Positions 20,292 to 27,159 of a stretch of 64,000 bases of DNA are shown piece after piece. Origin of the DNA: Rhodoferax sediminis (GTDB lineage Bacteria > Pseudomonadota > Gammaproteobacteria > Burkholderiales > Burkholderiaceae_C); the NCBI RefSeq assembly GCF_006970865.1, contig NZ_CP035503.1, forward strand, positions 1,253,001 to 1,317,000. Direction: 5' to 3'. The position numbers were made by a program, and so were the translations under genes. Position 1 is the stretch's first letter. Each line of letters starts with the position of its first letter. The notes under the pieces are model-generated. The model ran no database searches. It saw only the letters and a program-made list of their open reading frames with translations, and had not been told where the DNA came from.

Positions 20292-20368
20292 GGGGCGTTA
20301 GCTCAGTTGGTCAGAGCAGAGGACTCATAATCCTTTGGTCGTTGGTTCGAGCCCAACACGCCCTACCA
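20292..20368 (+). tRNA. tRNA-Met (elongator, anticodon CAU)
   Basis: A 77-base cloverleaf. The acceptor is GGGGCGT/ACGCCCT, the D arm GCTCAG, the anticodon arm GAGGA-CTCATAA-TCCTT-like with CAT, the T arm GTTGG-TTCGAGC-CCAAC, and CCA is encoded. It is elongator Met and not initiator because pair 1-72 is formed and the D-arm is standard. tRNA-Ile2 with a lysidine-modified CAU is a minor alternative. Confidence 0.92.
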
Positions 20369-20393: not shown

Positions 20394-21734
20394 CTATCCC
20401 GCTCCGGAGGCGATACCGTGCTTTTCCATGAGGCGGTACAGCGTCATGCGCGAAATGCCCAGTTCGCGCGCGGCGTGCGTGACGTTGCGTCCGACCCGGT
20501 TGAAGGTAATGGAGATTGCGTCGCGCTCGGCGATGGTCCGGGCGGTATCCAGGCCGATGCTGCTCTGACCCTCTTCAACGGTTAACCCGAGGTCTAGCGG
20601 CGTGATCATGCGCCGATCGGTCATCACCACAGCGCGCTGCACGCGGTTGAACAATTCCCGCACGTTGCCTGGCCAGTCGTAGGCCATCATGGCGGCGATG
20701 GCCTGCTTGCTGAAGCCTTCAACACGGGTTTTCTTGTCTGCCGTACAGCGCCGATAGAAGTGCTGGGCCAGCATGGGCACGTCGCCCTTGCGTTCGCGTA
20801 GCGCGGGCACCGCAAGGGTCAGCACGTTCAACCGGTAAAACAGATCTTCGCGGAAGTGGCCCGACGACACCGCTTCGGCCAGGTCCACGTGCGAGGCCGC
20901 TACAACTCGCGCGTCCACCTGCAAGGTGCGCGTGGCACCGACGCGATTGATGGTTTTTTCCTGCAGAAAGCGCAAGAGGTTGGTCTGCAATTCGCGCGGC
21001 AGATCGCCGATTTCGTCAAGAAAAATGGTTCCGCCGTTCGCCATTTCAATCAACCCGCGCTTTTCTGTGGACGCACCGGTAAACGAGCCGCGCTCGTGCC
21101 CGAACAGTTCGGAGTGAATCAGGCTCGGCGAAATGGCCCCGCAATTGACTGCGATGAACGGCCCGCTTGCGCGCGGTGAACATTGATGAATGGCCTGTGC
21201 CGCGAGTTCCTTGCCGCTACCGCTTTCTCCACCGATCAATACTGGCGCATTGGTGACGGCCACTTTCTTGATCTGCGAGCGCAACAAATCGATGGCAGCG
21301 CTTTGCCCGACCATGCCCATGTGCTCGATGCAGCGCTGTTGCAGGTCATGACCCTCTCGCAAGGTAGCGCGGCCGTAGGCATGTCCCAATGTCCGGGCCA
21401 GATAGCCCAGGTCCACGGGATGCGTGTGGTAGTCGAAAAAGCAGTCGAGAATCAGGCCGCGAAAGGCTGGCGACTCAAGCGATTGCGGTGGGAAAACGCC
21501 AACCCACTCGGATGACTTTGATGCCTTCAGGCACGCCTCAATCCTGGCGATGAGATCAGGGGCTGGCTGATTGAGCACCAGGACGCACACCAGGAAGTGG
21601 TTGCTCCCGAGAATCTGGCGGGCCGTCCCCAAATCGGTGGCCGAAACGACTTCCCAATCCTGGCCGCGCAGGTGCTCTTCTACTGCGGACGGCCCGTTAC
21701 CCAGTGTCAAACACAATATCTTTCGTGATTGCAT
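20394..21734 (-). CDS. VpsR-like sigma-54-dependent transcriptional activator
   Basis: A 446-residue enhancer-binding protein. Residues 1-125 form a degenerate receiver-like domain that ends FFDYHTHPVDLGYLARTLGH, which I associate with the VpsR family; the position of the phosphoacceptor strand reads VLVLNQ, with no obvious Asp. The AAA+ domain has Walker A GGESGSGKE (168-175), the sigma-54 loop GSFTGA (216-221, a GAFTGA variant) and Walker B TIFLDEIG. A Fis-type helix-turn-helix closes the protein (NVTHAARELGISRMTLYRLM). It starts ten bases after the barrel gene, so they form one operon. The likely target is the sigma-54 promoter at 23906. Confidence 0.9.
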   Translation of the reverse strand: MQSRKILCLTLGNGPSAVEEHLRGQDWEVVSATDLGTARQILGSNHFLVCVLVLNQPAPDLIARIEACLKASKSSEWVGVFPPQSLESPAFRGLILDCFFDYHTHPVDLGYLARTLGHAYGRATLREGHDLQQRCIEHMGMVGQSAAIDLLRSQIKKVAVTNAPVLIGGESGSGKELAAQAIHQCSPRASGPFIAVNCGAISPSLIHSELFGHERGSFTGASTEKRGLIEMANGGTIFLDEIGDLPRELQTNLLRFLQEKTINRVGATRTLQVDARVVAASHVDLAEAVSSGHFREDLFYRLNVLTLAVPALRERKGDVPMLAQHFYRRCTADKKTRVEGFSKQAIAAMMAYDWPGNVRELFNRVQRAVVMTDRRMITPLDLGLTVEEGQSSIGLDTARTIAERDAISITFNRVGRNVTHAARELGISRMTLYRLMEKHGIASGAG

Positions 21735-21744
21735 GGTGCTATTT

Positions 21745-23082
21745 CTAGAACGACAAAGGTATCCTGAGGTTCAGCGTCAGGTCCGGTGTATCGCGCGTCA
21801 AGCCCGCGCCGACCGTGAAATTCAGGGTGGTCTTGTCGCTGTAGCGATAAGAGAAGCCGAACAGCAGTTTTGCCAGCACAACCCGGACCGACCCCGTGAC
21901 CGGGGCGCCGTTTTGCAGCGTGCGTCCGACGGAGTTCAGGTCAACGCCGACGCTGAAGGCCGTTCTATCGTTGAGCGCCAGACCCATGCCAAAGTTGGCG
22001 CCAATGATGTCTCCGGCCTTCACGGTTCCGAGGAATTCTTGTTGCCCACCGAGCACCGTCAAACTCACGTTGTTGCGCGCGAAGTTGTGTGCATAGCTGA
22101 AGGTTCCGAAAAACACGGCAGGGTCCGACTGGAACAGCCAGGTCAGCGCCGGCTGCAGCAGATAGAAGCCCGAGCCCGTCGGTTGCGTGGTCGGCAAGCC
22201 GGTGCCGCCGGGATTGCCGACGCAACTGGTCAGGCAGTCGGTCACGACCTCGAACGGATCCTTGCCGGTCCGGGATTTAAAGCGAAGCGAGCCGATCAGG
22301 TAGGGCTTGGTGGCGCTGCCTTCGTTCAATTGATAGCGCGCGGTCACCTCGACGTCGCCGATCGCCTTGCCACTGCTGTTGAACACGCTGTCGGTAGCCG
22401 ACCCTGTGTTGAGTTCCCGGCCCACCGATGAATCGGAACGATATACATAGGGGATCTTGGCTTCCACCTCCATGCGGTTGGTCAGGCCATAGCGGCCGGT
22501 CAACGCACCCGTGAGGATGCTGTCCTTGACCTGCTGCACGTCAATCAGCCCGATCACCAGCGCCGGGATGATGGTGTAACCGATCAGCGCAACCCGGTTA
22601 TTCGATGAATAGCTGTACTCCAGTGACGGCTCAAACACGAATTTGCCCTTGGGCGTCAGAATGCCGGGCTGCTCGAACAGCCGCGGAACCTCGACTGGCG
22701 CCTGCGACTCCTGGCTCGGTGCCGCGCCGACCTGCACCGGATGCTGCTCCGTGTCCGTCGGATTTTGCTCAGCTTGTGCATTGGGGGCTGCCTGCTCTGC
22801 GTTCTCCCCCTGCGCCGTTTCGCCGGGCTGGGTGTCCCTGGCCTGCTGCCTCAATGCGCGCCGCAAGGCCTGGTATTTCTTCTCTTGCTCGGTCGTTATT
22901 CGCTTCAACGTCTCGATTTGCCGACCCTGCTCGGTCAACTGCTGTTGCAGCGATTCGATCTGCGCGCCCGAACTCTCCGGTGACGCTGACGGGCTTTGCG
23001 CCTGTACGGCTGCGCTTGATAACGCCAAGGTTGAATAAGCGAGCAAGGCAGCAGGCCTGTGCCGCAGACTTTTATTGTTCAT
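21745..23082 (-). CDS. FapF-like outer-membrane barrel with N-terminal coiled coil (putative fibre exporter)
   Basis: A 445-residue exported protein. Signal peptide 1-28 (ending AVQAQ), a coiled coil at about 38-85 (IESLQQQLTEQGRQIETLKR), an acidic Gln/Glu/Pro linker to about 135, then an outer-membrane barrel with alternating beta strands (FVFEPSLEYSYSSNNRVALI, DVEVTARYQLNEGS, AFSVGVDLNSVGRTL) ending in Phe. This layout of coiled coil then barrel is that of FapF, the amyloid-secretion pore of Pseudomonas. AGGAGG precedes the ATG. It is divergent from a secreted Gly-rich protein and a C39-like protease. Alternative: another outer-membrane porin or transporter. Confidence 0.75.
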   Translation of the reverse strand: MNNKSLRHRPAALLAYSTLALSSAAVQAQSPSASPESSGAQIESLQQQLTEQGRQIETLKRITTEQEKKYQALRRALRQQARDTQPGETAQGENAEQAAPNAQAEQNPTDTEQHPVQVGAAPSQESQAPVEVPRLFEQPGILTPKGKFVFEPSLEYSYSSNNRVALIGYTIIPALVIGLIDVQQVKDSILTGALTGRYGLTNRMEVEAKIPYVYRSDSSVGRELNTGSATDSVFNSSGKAIGDVEVTARYQLNEGSATKPYLIGSLRFKSRTGKDPFEVVTDCLTSCVGNPGGTGLPTTQPTGSGFYLLQPALTWLFQSDPAVFFGTFSYAHNFARNNVSLTVLGGQQEFLGTVKAGDIIGANFGMGLALNDRTAFSVGVDLNSVGRTLQNGAPVTGSVRVVLAKLLFGFSYRYSDKTTLNFTVGAGLTRDTPDLTLNLRIPLSF

Positions 23083-23122
23083 GGCGAACCTCCTGTGCGC
23101 AGACTACATGGCCCGGTGCATT

Positions 23123-23150
23123 GCGCCATCCCCTGAACAGGGGATGGTGC
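23123..23150. promoter_or_regulatory. Long inverted repeat upstream of the barrel gene
   Basis: GCGCCATCCCCTG-AA-CAGGGGATGGTGC, arms of 13 bases with a single G-T pair, 41 bases before the barrel start codon. It could be an operator or a hairpin in the 5' leader. On the same strand just upstream (about 23175-23161) TGGCACG matches a sigma-54 -24 box, but its -12 (CGGGG) is poor. Confidence 0.5.
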
Positions 23151-23905
23151 GGAAGGCGCCCCGAATCCGTGCCACCTGCGCGTGAACCGTTGCGGGGTAC
23201 GCGGCGTGACCGGACATGTACCGCGCTTTCATCTTGAATAGGGGGTGCTATCACTTCAAGAGCAATTTGCGAGAACTTTGCGCCTCGTTTTCACCCGTTT
23301 ATTCATCTCAGGTCATCAATGCGCTGGTTTGCGCAGGCAGGGTCGGCCCGGCGATTCAGTGTGATTGGGGCCAATGGTTCCGCGGTAGTTGGAGTTTTGC
23401 CAAATTTCCTGATGCGTAAGCGGTTTTGAAACTTGCATCCAAACGTAAATACGGTGTGCCACCATCGCATCTGAGCGCGGATTTCATGGCTGGCTCTGTT
23501 CCCGGTCATTGGAATCAGCTGTACTCGATCCCCCCTTGTCACAAGATTGATGCAATGTTTGTCTGTGCCCGAAAATCGGGTCCAAAGTGGGTCGTATGGC
23601 ACCTGGCAAAGGCATGCGCACATGCGCCGCCGCAACCCTCCATGTAAAACGCGATTTGAGGCGTCACAGAGCCGATACAGTTTGCGTGCTCCATCTTTCT
23701 GGCTGGATCGCTTGATCCCGATTCATTCCATCGGTGATCGCAACACCAGCAGCCATGAGAGCAAAAAAGACTGTCAAGAAGGCGTGACACTCCGCCGAAA
23801 AAAGCTCGCTCTTTCATGCTGCAGGCGCTGTCGTGTTGCGCAATGCCATAGCAAGTAGTCGTTTTCTCTTGATGGATAGAGGGTGGTGGGCATTCGTGCC
23901 GCATC

Positions 23906-23921
23906 TGGCACGAATTATGCG
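23906..23921 (+). promoter_or_regulatory. Sigma-54 promoter of the Gly-rich protein operon
   Basis: TGGCACGAATTATGCG matches the consensus TGGCACG-N4-TTGCW with a perfect -24 box and correct spacing to the -12 GC. The start site should fall near 23932, leaving a 60-base leader before the ATG at 23993. The -24 box is one arm of a perfect inverted repeat, ATTCGTGCC-N6-GGCACGAAT (23892-23915), so another protein could compete with sigma-54 here. Confidence 0.75.
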
Positions 23922-23992
23922 GAAGCCCCGTTGGGTGGCACCTAGCGCGACTCAAACCGTAACTTCAACATTTAACTTCAAGGAGAGACCGT

Positions 23993-25225
<1,233 letters not shown>

Positions 25226-25312
25226 GCACGGGCGAGTCACCCATCAGCCGTGGCGCACCTCGCAAGAGGGGCTCCACGGCTGGGTGGCGAGTTCAATAAA
25301 AGGGGAGTCATC

Positions 25313-25663
25313 ATGCGTCCAATGAGCTATTCCTTGCTCTTCCTTGCGGCATTGCCATCCCTGACGTCGACGCCTGCGGCAGCGCAGACTTCGGCGAGTG
25401 TTGGCGCGTCAAGCGCTGTCAGTTTTGGCTATCCGGTCAGTGCCAATGCTTTGGCAAGCCATCGCGGCGGCGACCTCACGATCACCGACACGAAACTGTC
25501 GGGCGTGACGGCAGACAACTCGGCCAACCAGGTGGTGACGGGTACGAATGCGATCGGCGGTGGCTCGTTTTCCAATCTGAGTGGCATTCCGGTGGTGATC
25601 CAGAACACGGGTGCCAACGTCCTGATCCAGAATGCGGTCACCCTGAATCTGCAGATGAAATAA
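25313..25663 (+). CDS. Small secreted protein with RGG motif, fibre-cluster component
   Basis: A 116-residue protein. The start is the ATG at 25313, behind AGGGGAG, giving a signal peptide to about residue 25 (LLFLAALPSLTSTPAAAQ). The mature part has SANALASHRGG (43-53), then a segment ending in Asn/Gln repeats VVIQNTGANVLIQNAVTLNL. I do not know a named family. The SxxxLxxxRGG stretch matches that of the 223-residue protein two genes on, and resembles a double-glycine leader. It sits between the Gly-rich protein and the C39-like protease, 12 bases before the latter. Confidence 0.7.
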   Translation: MRPMSYSLLFLAALPSLTSTPAAAQTSASVGASSAVSFGYPVSANALASHRGGDLTITDTKLSGVTADNSANQVVTGTNAIGGGSFSNLSGIPVVIQNTGANVLIQNAVTLNLQMK

Positions 25664-25675
25664 CAGGAGAACGCC

Positions 25676-26359
25676 ATGCGTCTCTTCTTGTTGACCGCCC
25701 TGATGGCGGGTGTGTGTCATGCGCAGGCCCCGGCACCGCGGATTGAGTTGCCGAGCATGGGTGGCGGCGATTATGCGATGCCGGTCACCAGCATCAAACA
25801 GGCGCGTCAGGCAAGCACGCTGCTGCAGCAATACGATTTCAGCTGTGGTTCGGCCGCGGTTGCGACGCTGCTGACCTACCAATACGGCTACCCGATTACC
25901 GAGCGCGCGGTATTCGATGAAATGTATGCGCACGGCGATCAGGCCAAGATCCGGCGGGAGGGTTTCTCGTTGCTGGACATGAAGAACTTCCTGGCGGCCC
26001 ATGGCTTCGAGGCGGACGGCTTCAATCAGCCGCTGGACAAGCTCAATGAAGCGCGTGTTCCGGCGATTGTGCTGATCAACCAGCACGGTTACCACCATTT
26101 CGTGGTCGTCAAGGGGCTGCAGGCGGACCGGGTGCTGATCGGCGATCCTGCGAATGGCACGCGAGTCGTGCCGCGTGCAGCGTTCGAGGCCAGTTGGGAA
26201 AGCCATCTGCTGTTTGTTATCCACAACCGGATGGACACTGCCAGGTTCAATCTCGCGGTGGACTGGCATGTGGCACCTCGCTCGCCGCTGGCCTCCGGCA
26301 TTGATAGAGCCGGGTTGGGCGGCATTACTTTGCCCAAGCTCGGCCCGGGAGACTTCTGA
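25676..26359 (+). CDS. Periplasmic C39-like cysteine protease (FapD-like)
   Basis: A 227-residue protein with a signal peptide (LFLLTALMAGVCHAQ), so it acts outside the cytoplasm, unlike the C39 domains fused to bacteriocin exporters. The papain-like catalytic elements are seen: oxyanion Gln52 and Cys57 in QQYDFSCGSAA, His141 in GYHHFVVVKG and Asp157 in LIGDPANGT. FapD of Pseudomonas fap operons is a protein of this kind. It is flanked by two secreted proteins with RGG double-glycine motifs, its likely substrates. CAGGAG precedes the ATG. Confidence 0.85.
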   Translation: MRLFLLTALMAGVCHAQAPAPRIELPSMGGGDYAMPVTSIKQARQASTLLQQYDFSCGSAAVATLLTYQYGYPITERAVFDEMYAHGDQAKIRREGFSLLDMKNFLAAHGFEADGFNQPLDKLNEARVPAIVLINQHGYHHFVVVKGLQADRVLIGDPANGTRVVPRAAFEASWESHLLFVIHNRMDTARFNLAVDWHVAPRSPLASGIDRAGLGGITLPKLGPGDF

Positions 26360-27030
26360 TGAAATACTTGCATTCTCTTTCGTGCCGCGCCGGCACATGG
26401 CTGTGTGCACTGGCTGGCGCGTGCTGCGTGTTTGGTGGCGGTCACGCCATTGCGGCGCAAGCCACGTCGAAGCCGGCGCGGGGTGGAGAGGTATGGCTCG
26501 CTGCCAGCAACAAGACGCTGGACGGGATGCGTGGCGGCTTTGACATCGGCGCCGGCCTGACGGTGTCGTTTGGCGTTGTGCGCTCCATTGCCATCAACGG
26601 CAATCTGCTCGTCACCACATCGTTCAATATTGCCGACCTGAGCAAAATTACGCCGGCGCAGGCGGCATTCATCAATCAGCAGGTGGGCACCCTGAACCTG
26701 ATACAAAACGGGCCGGGCAATACTGTTCAACCTGCCGCCACGCCTGCCACCGTCGCTACAGCTACGGGCCCAGTGTCTCCAGGTTCTCCAGCCCCGGGTT
26801 CTGCGAACTCTGCATCTCCGACTTCTGTCACCCTGGGCACCGCTACCTTGAGTACCGCTCCTTTCAATGGCGCGGCGTTCGGCACGTTTATCCAAAATAC
26901 CTTGAACAACCAGAACATACAGAACCAGACCGTGATCAATGCAAGCACCAATAGCTTGAGTATGTTGAAGGGGATGAATTGGCTCAACACCTTGAATAGC
27001 GCACTGTCGAGCGCGTTTGGAAGTCGGTAA
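26359..27030 (+). CDS. Secreted protein with double-glycine-like motif and IQN repeats
   Basis: A 223-residue exported protein whose ATG overlaps the protease stop (TGATG). The signal region (residues 8-34) is followed by SNKTLDGMRGG (50-60), which matches the bacteriocin double-glycine pattern LSxxELxxIxGG at S-11, L-7, M-4 and GG. Next comes LTVSFGVVRSIAINGNLLVT, a Pro/Ala/Thr-rich linker (120-160), and an Asn/Gln-rich C-terminal part FIQNTLNNQNIQNQTVINAS. I know no characterised family. It may be a processed minor fibre component or nucleator. Confidence 0.7.
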   Translation: MKYLHSLSCRAGTWLCALAGACCVFGGGHAIAAQATSKPARGGEVWLAASNKTLDGMRGGFDIGAGLTVSFGVVRSIAINGNLLVTTSFNIADLSKITPAQAAFINQQVGTLNLIQNGPGNTVQPAATPATVATATGPVSPGSPAPGSANSASPTSVTLGTATLSTAPFNGAAFGTFIQNTLNNQNIQNQTVINASTNSLSMLKGMNWLNTLNSALSSAFGSR

Positions 27031-27082: not shown

Positions 27083-27159
27083 GCGGCTGTAGCTCAGTTG
27101 GATAGAGTACTTGGCTACGAACCAAGGGGTCGTGGGTTCAATTCCTGCCAGCCGCACCA
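27083..27159 (+). tRNA. tRNA-Arg (anticodon ACG)
   Basis: A 77-base cloverleaf: acceptor GCGGCTG/CAGCCGC, anticodon arm CTTGG-CTACGAA-CCAAG with ACG (read as ICG), T arm GGGTTCAATTCC, and encoded CCA. Followed by a clear terminator. Confidence 0.97.

Follow-up and report, generated by a model that had tools for sequence, protein, structure and literature searches.

What kind of secretion system is encoded by a six-gene locus of Rhodoferax sediminis in which a FapF-like barrel and a C39 protease stand beside a glycine-rich secreted protein? The locus occupies positions 20394..27030 of the window, the 64,000-nucleotide stretch that we analysed (assembly GCF_006970865.1, contig NZ_CP035503.1, positions 1,253,001 to 1,317,000). 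We consider it probable that it encodes a divergent Fap-type secretion system exporting an unusual glycine-rich, Fap-like surface fibre or matrix protein. The locus is apparently a distant, undescribed relative of the Pseudomonas Fap biofilm-fibre system; in the literature searched, mostly non-subscription papers, we found no description of this branch or of a C39 leader in FapE.

Gene content of the locus

An earlier note, made from the DNA sequence alone, had placed six genes here in two divergent operons sharing a 910-base region, and all of them were confirmed at their coordinates in the window. The features of the system are as follows:

20394..21734, minus strand: VpsR-type sigma-54 enhancer-binding regulator with a VpsR domain, an AAA+ domain and a Fis-type helix-turn-helix; GSFTGA loop
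21745..23082, minus strand: fapF homologue, N-terminal periplasmic region and outer-membrane barrel; PTG gate motif
23083..23992, no strand: divergent regulatory region of 910 bases between fapF and the Gly-rich gene
23906..23921, plus strand: sigma-54 (-24/-12) site TGGCAC-N5-ATGC, 71 bases 5' of the Gly-rich start codon, two mismatches
23993..25225, plus strand: Gly/Asn/Ser-rich secreted protein, proposed main fibre subunit, in FapC-like position
25085..25222, plus strand: conserved C-terminal repeat of the Gly-rich subunit (consensus of 66 sequences; profile match to the p4 C-terminus)
25313..25663, plus strand: p4, small secreted protein, proposed minor or nucleating subunit, with a double-glycine-type leader and one C-terminal repeat
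25436..25471, plus strand: p4 leader positions -12 to -1, ending RGG
25676..26359, plus strand: C39 cysteine peptidase (fapD homologue), carrying an export signal of its own at the N-terminus; motifs DFSCGS (Cys), HHFVV (His) and GDP (Asp)
26359..27030, plus strand: p6, secreted protein in FapE position with a double-glycine-type leader
26503..26538, plus strand: p6 leader from -12 to -1, with RGG at its end and Phe next

In the mechanical list of open reading frames (ORFs), p4 is longer, with a GTG start at 25250. The genome is a single 4.39-Mb contig with one FapF match, one FapD-model match, one p6 match and one rpoN (E=1.8e-129); no FapB match was found on it.

The search with FapF and FapD profiles that the note had proposed supported both assignments. 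The barrel matched the solved FapF (E=8.9e-35, residues 125-444) and the FapF model NF058560 (E=1e-46, residues 49-445), the latter with 159.6 bits and so below the curated cut-off of 700. A PTG-type gate was present in 79 of 85 variant FapF proteins, as we call those of the window's kind, and in 21 of 23 canonical ones. The family match suggests that the periplasmic coiled coil of FapF may be present as well, the model match starting at residue 49, in the relevant region. A crude heptad count gave 5/8 for the window barrel, below the mean of shuffled variant sequences (5.80), and means of 6.16 for the variants and 6.22 for canonical FapF. The closest barrels in a scan of GTDB contigs came from Polaromonas sp. 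C04 (92%), a Burkholderiaceae metagenome-assembled genome (89%) and a Rhodoferax metagenome-assembled genome (85%).

The protease matched the C39 family PF03412 (E=6.8e-22), and its nearest NCBIfam models were FapD (NF058616, E=1.6e-37), at 128.9 bits below the curated cut-off of 330, followed by FilB (1.5e-32). The catalytic C, H and D patterns were found in 72 of 73 variant FapD proteins, the sole miss being an ORF without its N-terminal part (L147), and in 25 of 26 canonical ones, where the sole miss (L114) is a short ORF. This canonical fap locus of genome G322 (L114, 4858-6488), in which the short fapD ORF is followed by a transposase-like ORF, seems to be interrupted.

Conservation and relation to canonical Fap

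Further loci were taken from the GTDB scan with the barrel, as the best 80 of 143 barrel relatives, so that co-occurrence was measured among near relatives. Within this set 64 of 80 have fapF, fapD, p4 and p6 together, and with the window and six plasmid-collection stretches added the count is 69 of 87 sources. Among the 16 incomplete loci, 13 stop at a contig end by the genes and two (L020, L070) at the edge of the retrieved stretch; L027 is without companions. The two findings that the note had named as refuting its reading were thus not obtained, the barrel aligning with FapF and not with an unrelated transporter, and the neighbouring genes co-occurring. The fapF of L027 (7878-9320) is a second copy in Variovorax paradoxus ISL-79, with no fapD, p4 or p6 in the 15.2 kb around it, of which 7.9 kb precede fapF and 5.9 kb follow it up to the contig end; the complete locus of this strain lies elsewhere (L010).

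The complete loci number 66, namely the window, C. metallidurans and 64 of the 80. All 66 have the order p4-fapD-p6 on one strand. An ORF rich in Gly/Asn/Ser/Thr/Ala lies immediately 5' of p4 in 68 of the 74 loci with p4, a count that includes the outliers L147 and L148, excluded afterwards. When fapF is on the fapD strand (24 tested loci), the order is subunit, p4, fapD, p6, fapF, with p6 in the place of FapE.

The note had suggested a system of Burkholderiales, which proved too narrow. Besides Comamonadaceae, Burkholderiaceae, Oxalobacteraceae and Sphaerotilaceae, the hosts include Lysobacter, Dyella and Frateuria, and looser forms occur in plasmid-collection records of Photobacterium, Vibrio and Croceicoccus. 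Counted by a p6 match alone (E<=0.001), at least 25 of 300 evenly drawn Burkholderiales genomes are positive, the window genome included. On plasmid pCME4A9I of Croceicoccus marinus (Alphaproteobacteria; L148, 5729-9993) the order hypothetical-hypothetical-C39-hypothetical-transporter matches that of the locus, with relatives of p4 and p6. On a Vibrio plasmid (L147, 7791-9885), a gene for a FapF-like transporter lies close to one for a tyrosine recombinase.

The trees comprised 44 of 98 barrels and 46 of 89 proteases; their canonical members came from genomes that belong to the same class. A long branch parts variant from canonical Fap in both, with a length of 2.41 for the barrels (support 99/100) and 1.79 for the proteases (100/100). 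The 28 variant barrels form one group (97/98). The variant proteases need two changes on the tree; they may nevertheless have a single origin. The long branch places the barrels of Photobacterium, Vibrio and Croceicoccus with the variants, and their proteases branch between both kinds with weak support.

Double-glycine-type leaders in p4 and p6 and the corresponding segment of FapE

In Pseudomonas, FapD acts in the periplasm and its Cys is required for FapC secretion (PMC5557850). FapE alone among the Fap proteins showed complete N-terminal processing, with none of the recorded peptides coming from its first ~70 residues, and the same 2017 study called the FapD target unclear and described the Fap proteins as without canonical C39 sequences (PMC5557850). 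According to a review of December 2025, FapD is still 'thought to' process FapE and FapF (PMC12822426). The consensus of C39 leaders is given as L(-12)xxxE(-8)L(-7)xxxxG(-2)G(-1), with position -4 also in the hydrophobic groove (PMC6959990, PMC6363468).

After its Sec-type N-terminus, p6 carries a leader of the form V-S-x-x-x-L-D-x-M-R-G-G-F. Two of the 71 p6 sequences (L058, L071) are without their N-terminus and were left out of the leader counts. The remaining 69 all have RGG, 68 have V/A/L at -12, 68 have F directly after RGG and 61 have M/L/V/A at -4. Position -7 is L/M in 69 of 69; the motif filter itself admitted only hydrophobic residues at this position, besides G at -2 and G/K/R at -1. 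In an alignment made without this filter, W, L, R, G, G and F were invariant in 51 of 51 sequences. For p4, whose leader likewise follows a Sec-type N-terminus, the 74 rows gave RGG in 61, SGG in 4, RGK in 3, RGR in 2, SGK in 1 and no call in 3, and thus GG in 65 of 74; nine of the 74 had been missed by the first motif filter and were added in a recount. Here the unfiltered alignment left L, R, G and G invariant in 39 of 39.

A comparable segment is present in FapE. Without motif filter, and counting all FapE matches of two sets (16 + 12), R-G-[K/R] was found in 28 of 28, with L/V/I at -12 in 28, E at -8 in 22, L/M at -7 in 28 and L/M/I at -4 in 27. The end of the segment lies near residue 40 (39-43) in the 12 FapE of Pseudomonadaceae type. 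The p6 and FapE profiles matched each other with E=6.8e-6 (probability 85%; reversed control 0.21). Aligned with the p6 and p4 leaders, R-G-[K/R] is the likely cut or docking site in FapE. In low-confidence models, the helix nearest upstream of the motif appears to span -10 to -4 in both p6 (51-57) and p4 (44-50), and the leader bound to PCAT1 is helical over the corresponding stretch (PMC6959990).

Six Massilia loci (L053, L056, L057, L060, L069, L078) offer a natural test of what the peptidase accepts, as their p4 leader ends in RGK, RGR or SGK and their p6 leader in RGG. This pairing suggests that one peptidase may serve both leader endings, GG and G-K/R. Another Massilia locus, L046, has RGG in both p4 and p6.

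FapA was considered as a cleaved target and left out of the claim, in view of its motifs and of published mass spectra in which it was unprocessed. Seven FapA of canonical loci, selected with an LWD[E/S] filter, carry L-S-D-x-x-L-like motifs with G-R/K in most, and six Pseudomonadaceae-type FapA carry a degenerate form ending in S-G. With p4, FapA has 15 leader columns in common and nothing more (E=1.7e-3 vs 0.74 reversed). The FapA chaperone is often absent from known Fap systems. The family PF27023, which had been listed for protein P0185, was not reproduced by a Pfam scan of P0185 and was not used.

The glycine-rich protein and p4 share a C-terminal repeat

In the Gly-rich protein, a long Gly/Asn/Ser linker joins a conserved module at the N-terminus to a single conserved repeat at the C-terminus; the protein had no Pfam or NCBIfam match at E<=1. 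The repeat has the consensus AGtFnMSN.MtSVGQsAAGiM.a.QNSG..SLvQQSVNVQANL (66 sequences), and p4 ends in GsFaN.sG.P.VIQNsGaNVLIQNA. The profiles of these two C-termini matched with E=2.3e-6 (probability 89%; reversed control 0.097). The ORF of the Gly-rich protein varies in length from 306 to 1105 residues (upper bounds). Two loci have two Gly-rich subunit genes each, L020 (917-5318, Undibacterium terreum) and L078 (1274-5856, Massilia sp. 9I).

Profile comparisons of the Gly-rich protein with FapC and FapB gave no significant match, and we call it a positional counterpart of FapC rather than its homologue. The p4 C-terminus matched the FapB repeats weakly (0.003 vs 0.24 reversed), and the window p4 reached only E=0.095 against the FapB model. 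As the C-termini of p4 and the Gly-rich protein match each other and the comparisons with FapC and FapB are not significant, the two appear to be a major and a minor subunit that share a motif, and are not demonstrable as FapC and FapB. The main subunit is thus unlike FapB and FapC, as the note had held. Its view of the accessory proteins as unfamiliar needs correction in part: p6 is in FapE position with the leader-plus-FG segment of FapE, and p4 combines a leader of this kind with the shared repeat. The Gly-rich protein, p4 and p6 match no curated Fap family.

A sigma-54 site before the subunit operon

The regulator matched PF00158 (E=1.8e-68) and the VpsR family PF20161 (E=7.8e-13), and has a Fis-type helix-turn-helix and the loop GSFTGA, in agreement with the VpsR-like activator that had been predicted. 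Close homologues (E<1e-90) lie within the retrieved stretch of 38 of the 66 complete loci, 24 of them with GAFTGA and 14 with GSFTGA; none was seen in the retrieved stretches of the Ralstonia, Cupriavidus, Pandoraea, Lysobacter, Dyella and Frateuria loci.

Taken alone, the sigma-54 site of the window is not significant (29 matches in the window vs 47.8 expected), and we credit it because the comparison across loci supports it. The Gly-rich genes of 56 of the 66 complete loci could be tested, the rest being without a recognised start or with too little upstream DNA. All 56 have a -24/-12 site with GG and GC in register within 260 bases 5' of the Gly-rich start codon, at a distance of 62-116 bases in all loci but L003. 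Compared with TGGCAC-N5-TTGCW, the site has no mismatch in 11 loci, one in 25, two in 17 (window included) and three in 3. In simple letter shuffles, the observed score was equalled in 0 to 12% of cases per locus.

Sites with two or fewer mismatches precede the Gly-rich gene in 53 of 56 loci, whereas they precede fapF in only 2 of 46 loci with fapF on the opposite strand (L001, L044), a group that includes tail-to-tail arrangements such as that of Ralstonia besides divergent ones, and in 0 of 24 with fapF on the same strand. The best candidate before the window fapF has five mismatches. Judged from these counts, the predicted site is one that serves the Gly-rich operon and not fapF. Of the sigma-54 control that the note had claimed for the island, a site before the subunit operon was supported, but none before fapF. 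In P. fluorescens PF07, fap is driven by BrfA, an enhancer-binding protein that senses cyclic di-GMP (PMC13101488); that the window regulator might bind this nucleotide is a guess.

Flanking regions

The locus is bounded by two tRNA genes found with ARAGORN:

20292..20368, plus strand: tRNA-Met (CAT), left boundary
27083..27159, plus strand: tRNA-Arg (ACG), right boundary

Of 16 relatives scanned, three (L001, L003, L004) have both tRNAs and L019 has tRNA-Met only. The idea that the tRNA flanks mark an integrated island was rejected, because both are kept in these three. In Polaromonas sp. C04 (L001, 10689-13601), about 2.9 kb with an ORF of 452 residues separates the regulator from tRNA-Met, where the window has 25 bases.

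Proposed mechanism and alternative explanations

Gene content, leaders, promoter and homology were computed; cleavage, export, assembly, amyloid nature and regulation are read from them. In the mechanism that we propose, all proteins of the system would reach the periplasm via Sec, where FapD would cut p4 and p6 after RGG. This cleavage would license FapF to export the Gly-rich subunit and p4, which would assemble outside the cell through their shared C-terminal repeat. The Gly/Asn/Ser linker would be the exposed, variable part of the fibre, and p6 may act as a cap or anchor, as proposed for FapE.

A wider claim, on which we are evenly divided, is that Fap-type systems in general work 'Sec first, C39 second'. 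FapE-type proteins would then carry a second, bacteriocin-like leader that free FapD removes to license export through FapF, and the Burkholderiales/Xanthomonadales branch would have kept Gly-Gly on two proteins and have a glycine-rich fibre without the three FapC repeats.

Several results weigh against these proposals. For the leaders, a loose C39 pattern (L/I/V/M at -12 and -4) was found in only 44 of 69 p6 and 19 of 65 p4, the latter having Tyr most often at -4, and neither protein conserves E(-8). The strict pattern L...[ED]L....G occurred in 9 of 12 Pseudomonadaceae-type and in 3 of 13 other FapE, in a set of 25 rows pre-filtered for R-G-[K/R], and among 1744 background ORFs 12 likewise contain a loose motif with RG[GKR]. 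FapE has K/R at -1, which is unusual for C39 peptidases, as these usually accommodate small residues in their pocket. The match of p6 with FapE is confined to 29 columns, the leader and FG segment, and outside these the cores gave no match (0.029, reversed 0.15); at E<=0.01 none of 51 p6 matched any Fap model, the FapE model NF058559 included, and none of 39 p4 did, FapB included. The Gly-rich C-terminus gave 0.23 with FapC and 0.041 with FapB, neither significant. The mean pLDDT (predicted local distance difference test) of the AlphaFold models is 48 for p6 and 51.5 for p4, and the heptad count of the window barrel, 5/8, is below the shuffled variant mean of 5.80. Finally, the FapF linker is possibly processed too, and FapF was suggested as a further FapD target (PMC5557850).

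Two other explanations have to be weighed. The locus could be an ordinary Fap system poorly matched by the models, with the Gly-rich protein a FapC with long linkers and degenerate repeats and p4 an ordinary FapB. The transporter and protease are of the same families, the gene order is similar, the linkers of FapC vary greatly (PMC3792158) and the p4 C-terminus is weakly like the FapB repeats, as given above. We nevertheless consider this explanation unlikely, as the long branches part barrel and protease from canonical Fap, the Gly-rich subunit has no FapC or FapB match and one conserved C-terminal repeat where three are reported as almost universal (PMC12822426), and p4 has a C39-type leader. 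It could also be that there is no fibre, and that the FapF/C39 module exports p4 and p6 as a small processed signal, antimicrobial or adhesin while the Gly-rich protein belongs to the matrix, either soluble or loosely bound. Exported bacteriocins and signalling peptides typically have double-glycine leaders (PMC6363468), and the part of p4 that follows RGG is only 63 residues long. The C-terminal repeat common to p4 and the Gly-rich subunit and the FapF family of the exporter speak against this and indicate co-assembly, so that we hold this explanation to be quite improbable.

If the wider claim on Fap-type systems holds, the subunit design of Fap would not be fixed, and FapD would have a target that can be recognised. 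Three repeats in FapB and FapC have been described as nearly universal and Fap as evolutionarily fixed (PMC12822426, PMC12392863), a view that may be too narrow. Surveys that require FapB/C repeats, such as these, are expected to miss the present branch, because its subunits match no FapB or FapC model. The leaders of p4 and p6, aligned with the G-K/R of FapE, name the place to look for cleavage both here and in Pseudomonas, and make the question of the FapD target directly testable. Furthermore, a secreted glycine-rich subunit of variable length with its own exporter would be of interest for biofilms and biomaterials.

Comparison with known systems

The Fil 'putative pilus' of Acinetobacter resembles the locus in that the models of FilC (FapF-like, E=9.8e-11) and FilB (C39, E=1.5e-32) match window proteins, but both matches are weaker than those of the Fap models for barrel and protease. 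No other Fil model matched any of the six window proteins, and the p4 and p6 profiles match nothing in the Fil stretch L149.

With the C39 ATP-binding cassette (ABC) transporters PCAT1, LahT and ComA, the locus has in common the C39 catalytic residues and a leader with hydrophobic residues at -12, -7 and often -4 and a Gly-Gly end. In contrast to these, the window peptidase has no ABC transporter domain and is exported as a protein of its own, and the substrates proposed for it would first pass through Sec.

Pseudomonas Fap (fapABCDEF) differs from the locus in several respects. The window subunits have no FapB/FapC match, the Gly/Asn/Ser-rich subunit has one C-terminal repeat and not three, the leaders end in a true GG, one of them on the repeat-bearing p4, fapF is on the other strand, and the FapF and FapD models are matched below their cut-offs. 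The Fap-type parts list that the earlier note had drawn up was supported, as were the FapF and FapD homology and the sigma-54 site before the subunit operon. Both systems have a FapF-family barrel, a FapD C39 peptidase, subunit genes 5' of fapD and a gene 3' of fapD (p6 in the window) whose FapE-position protein carries a C39-like leader. The control that an enhancer-binding protein would exert in the window has a parallel in P. fluorescens PF07, where this protein is BrfA (PMC13101488).

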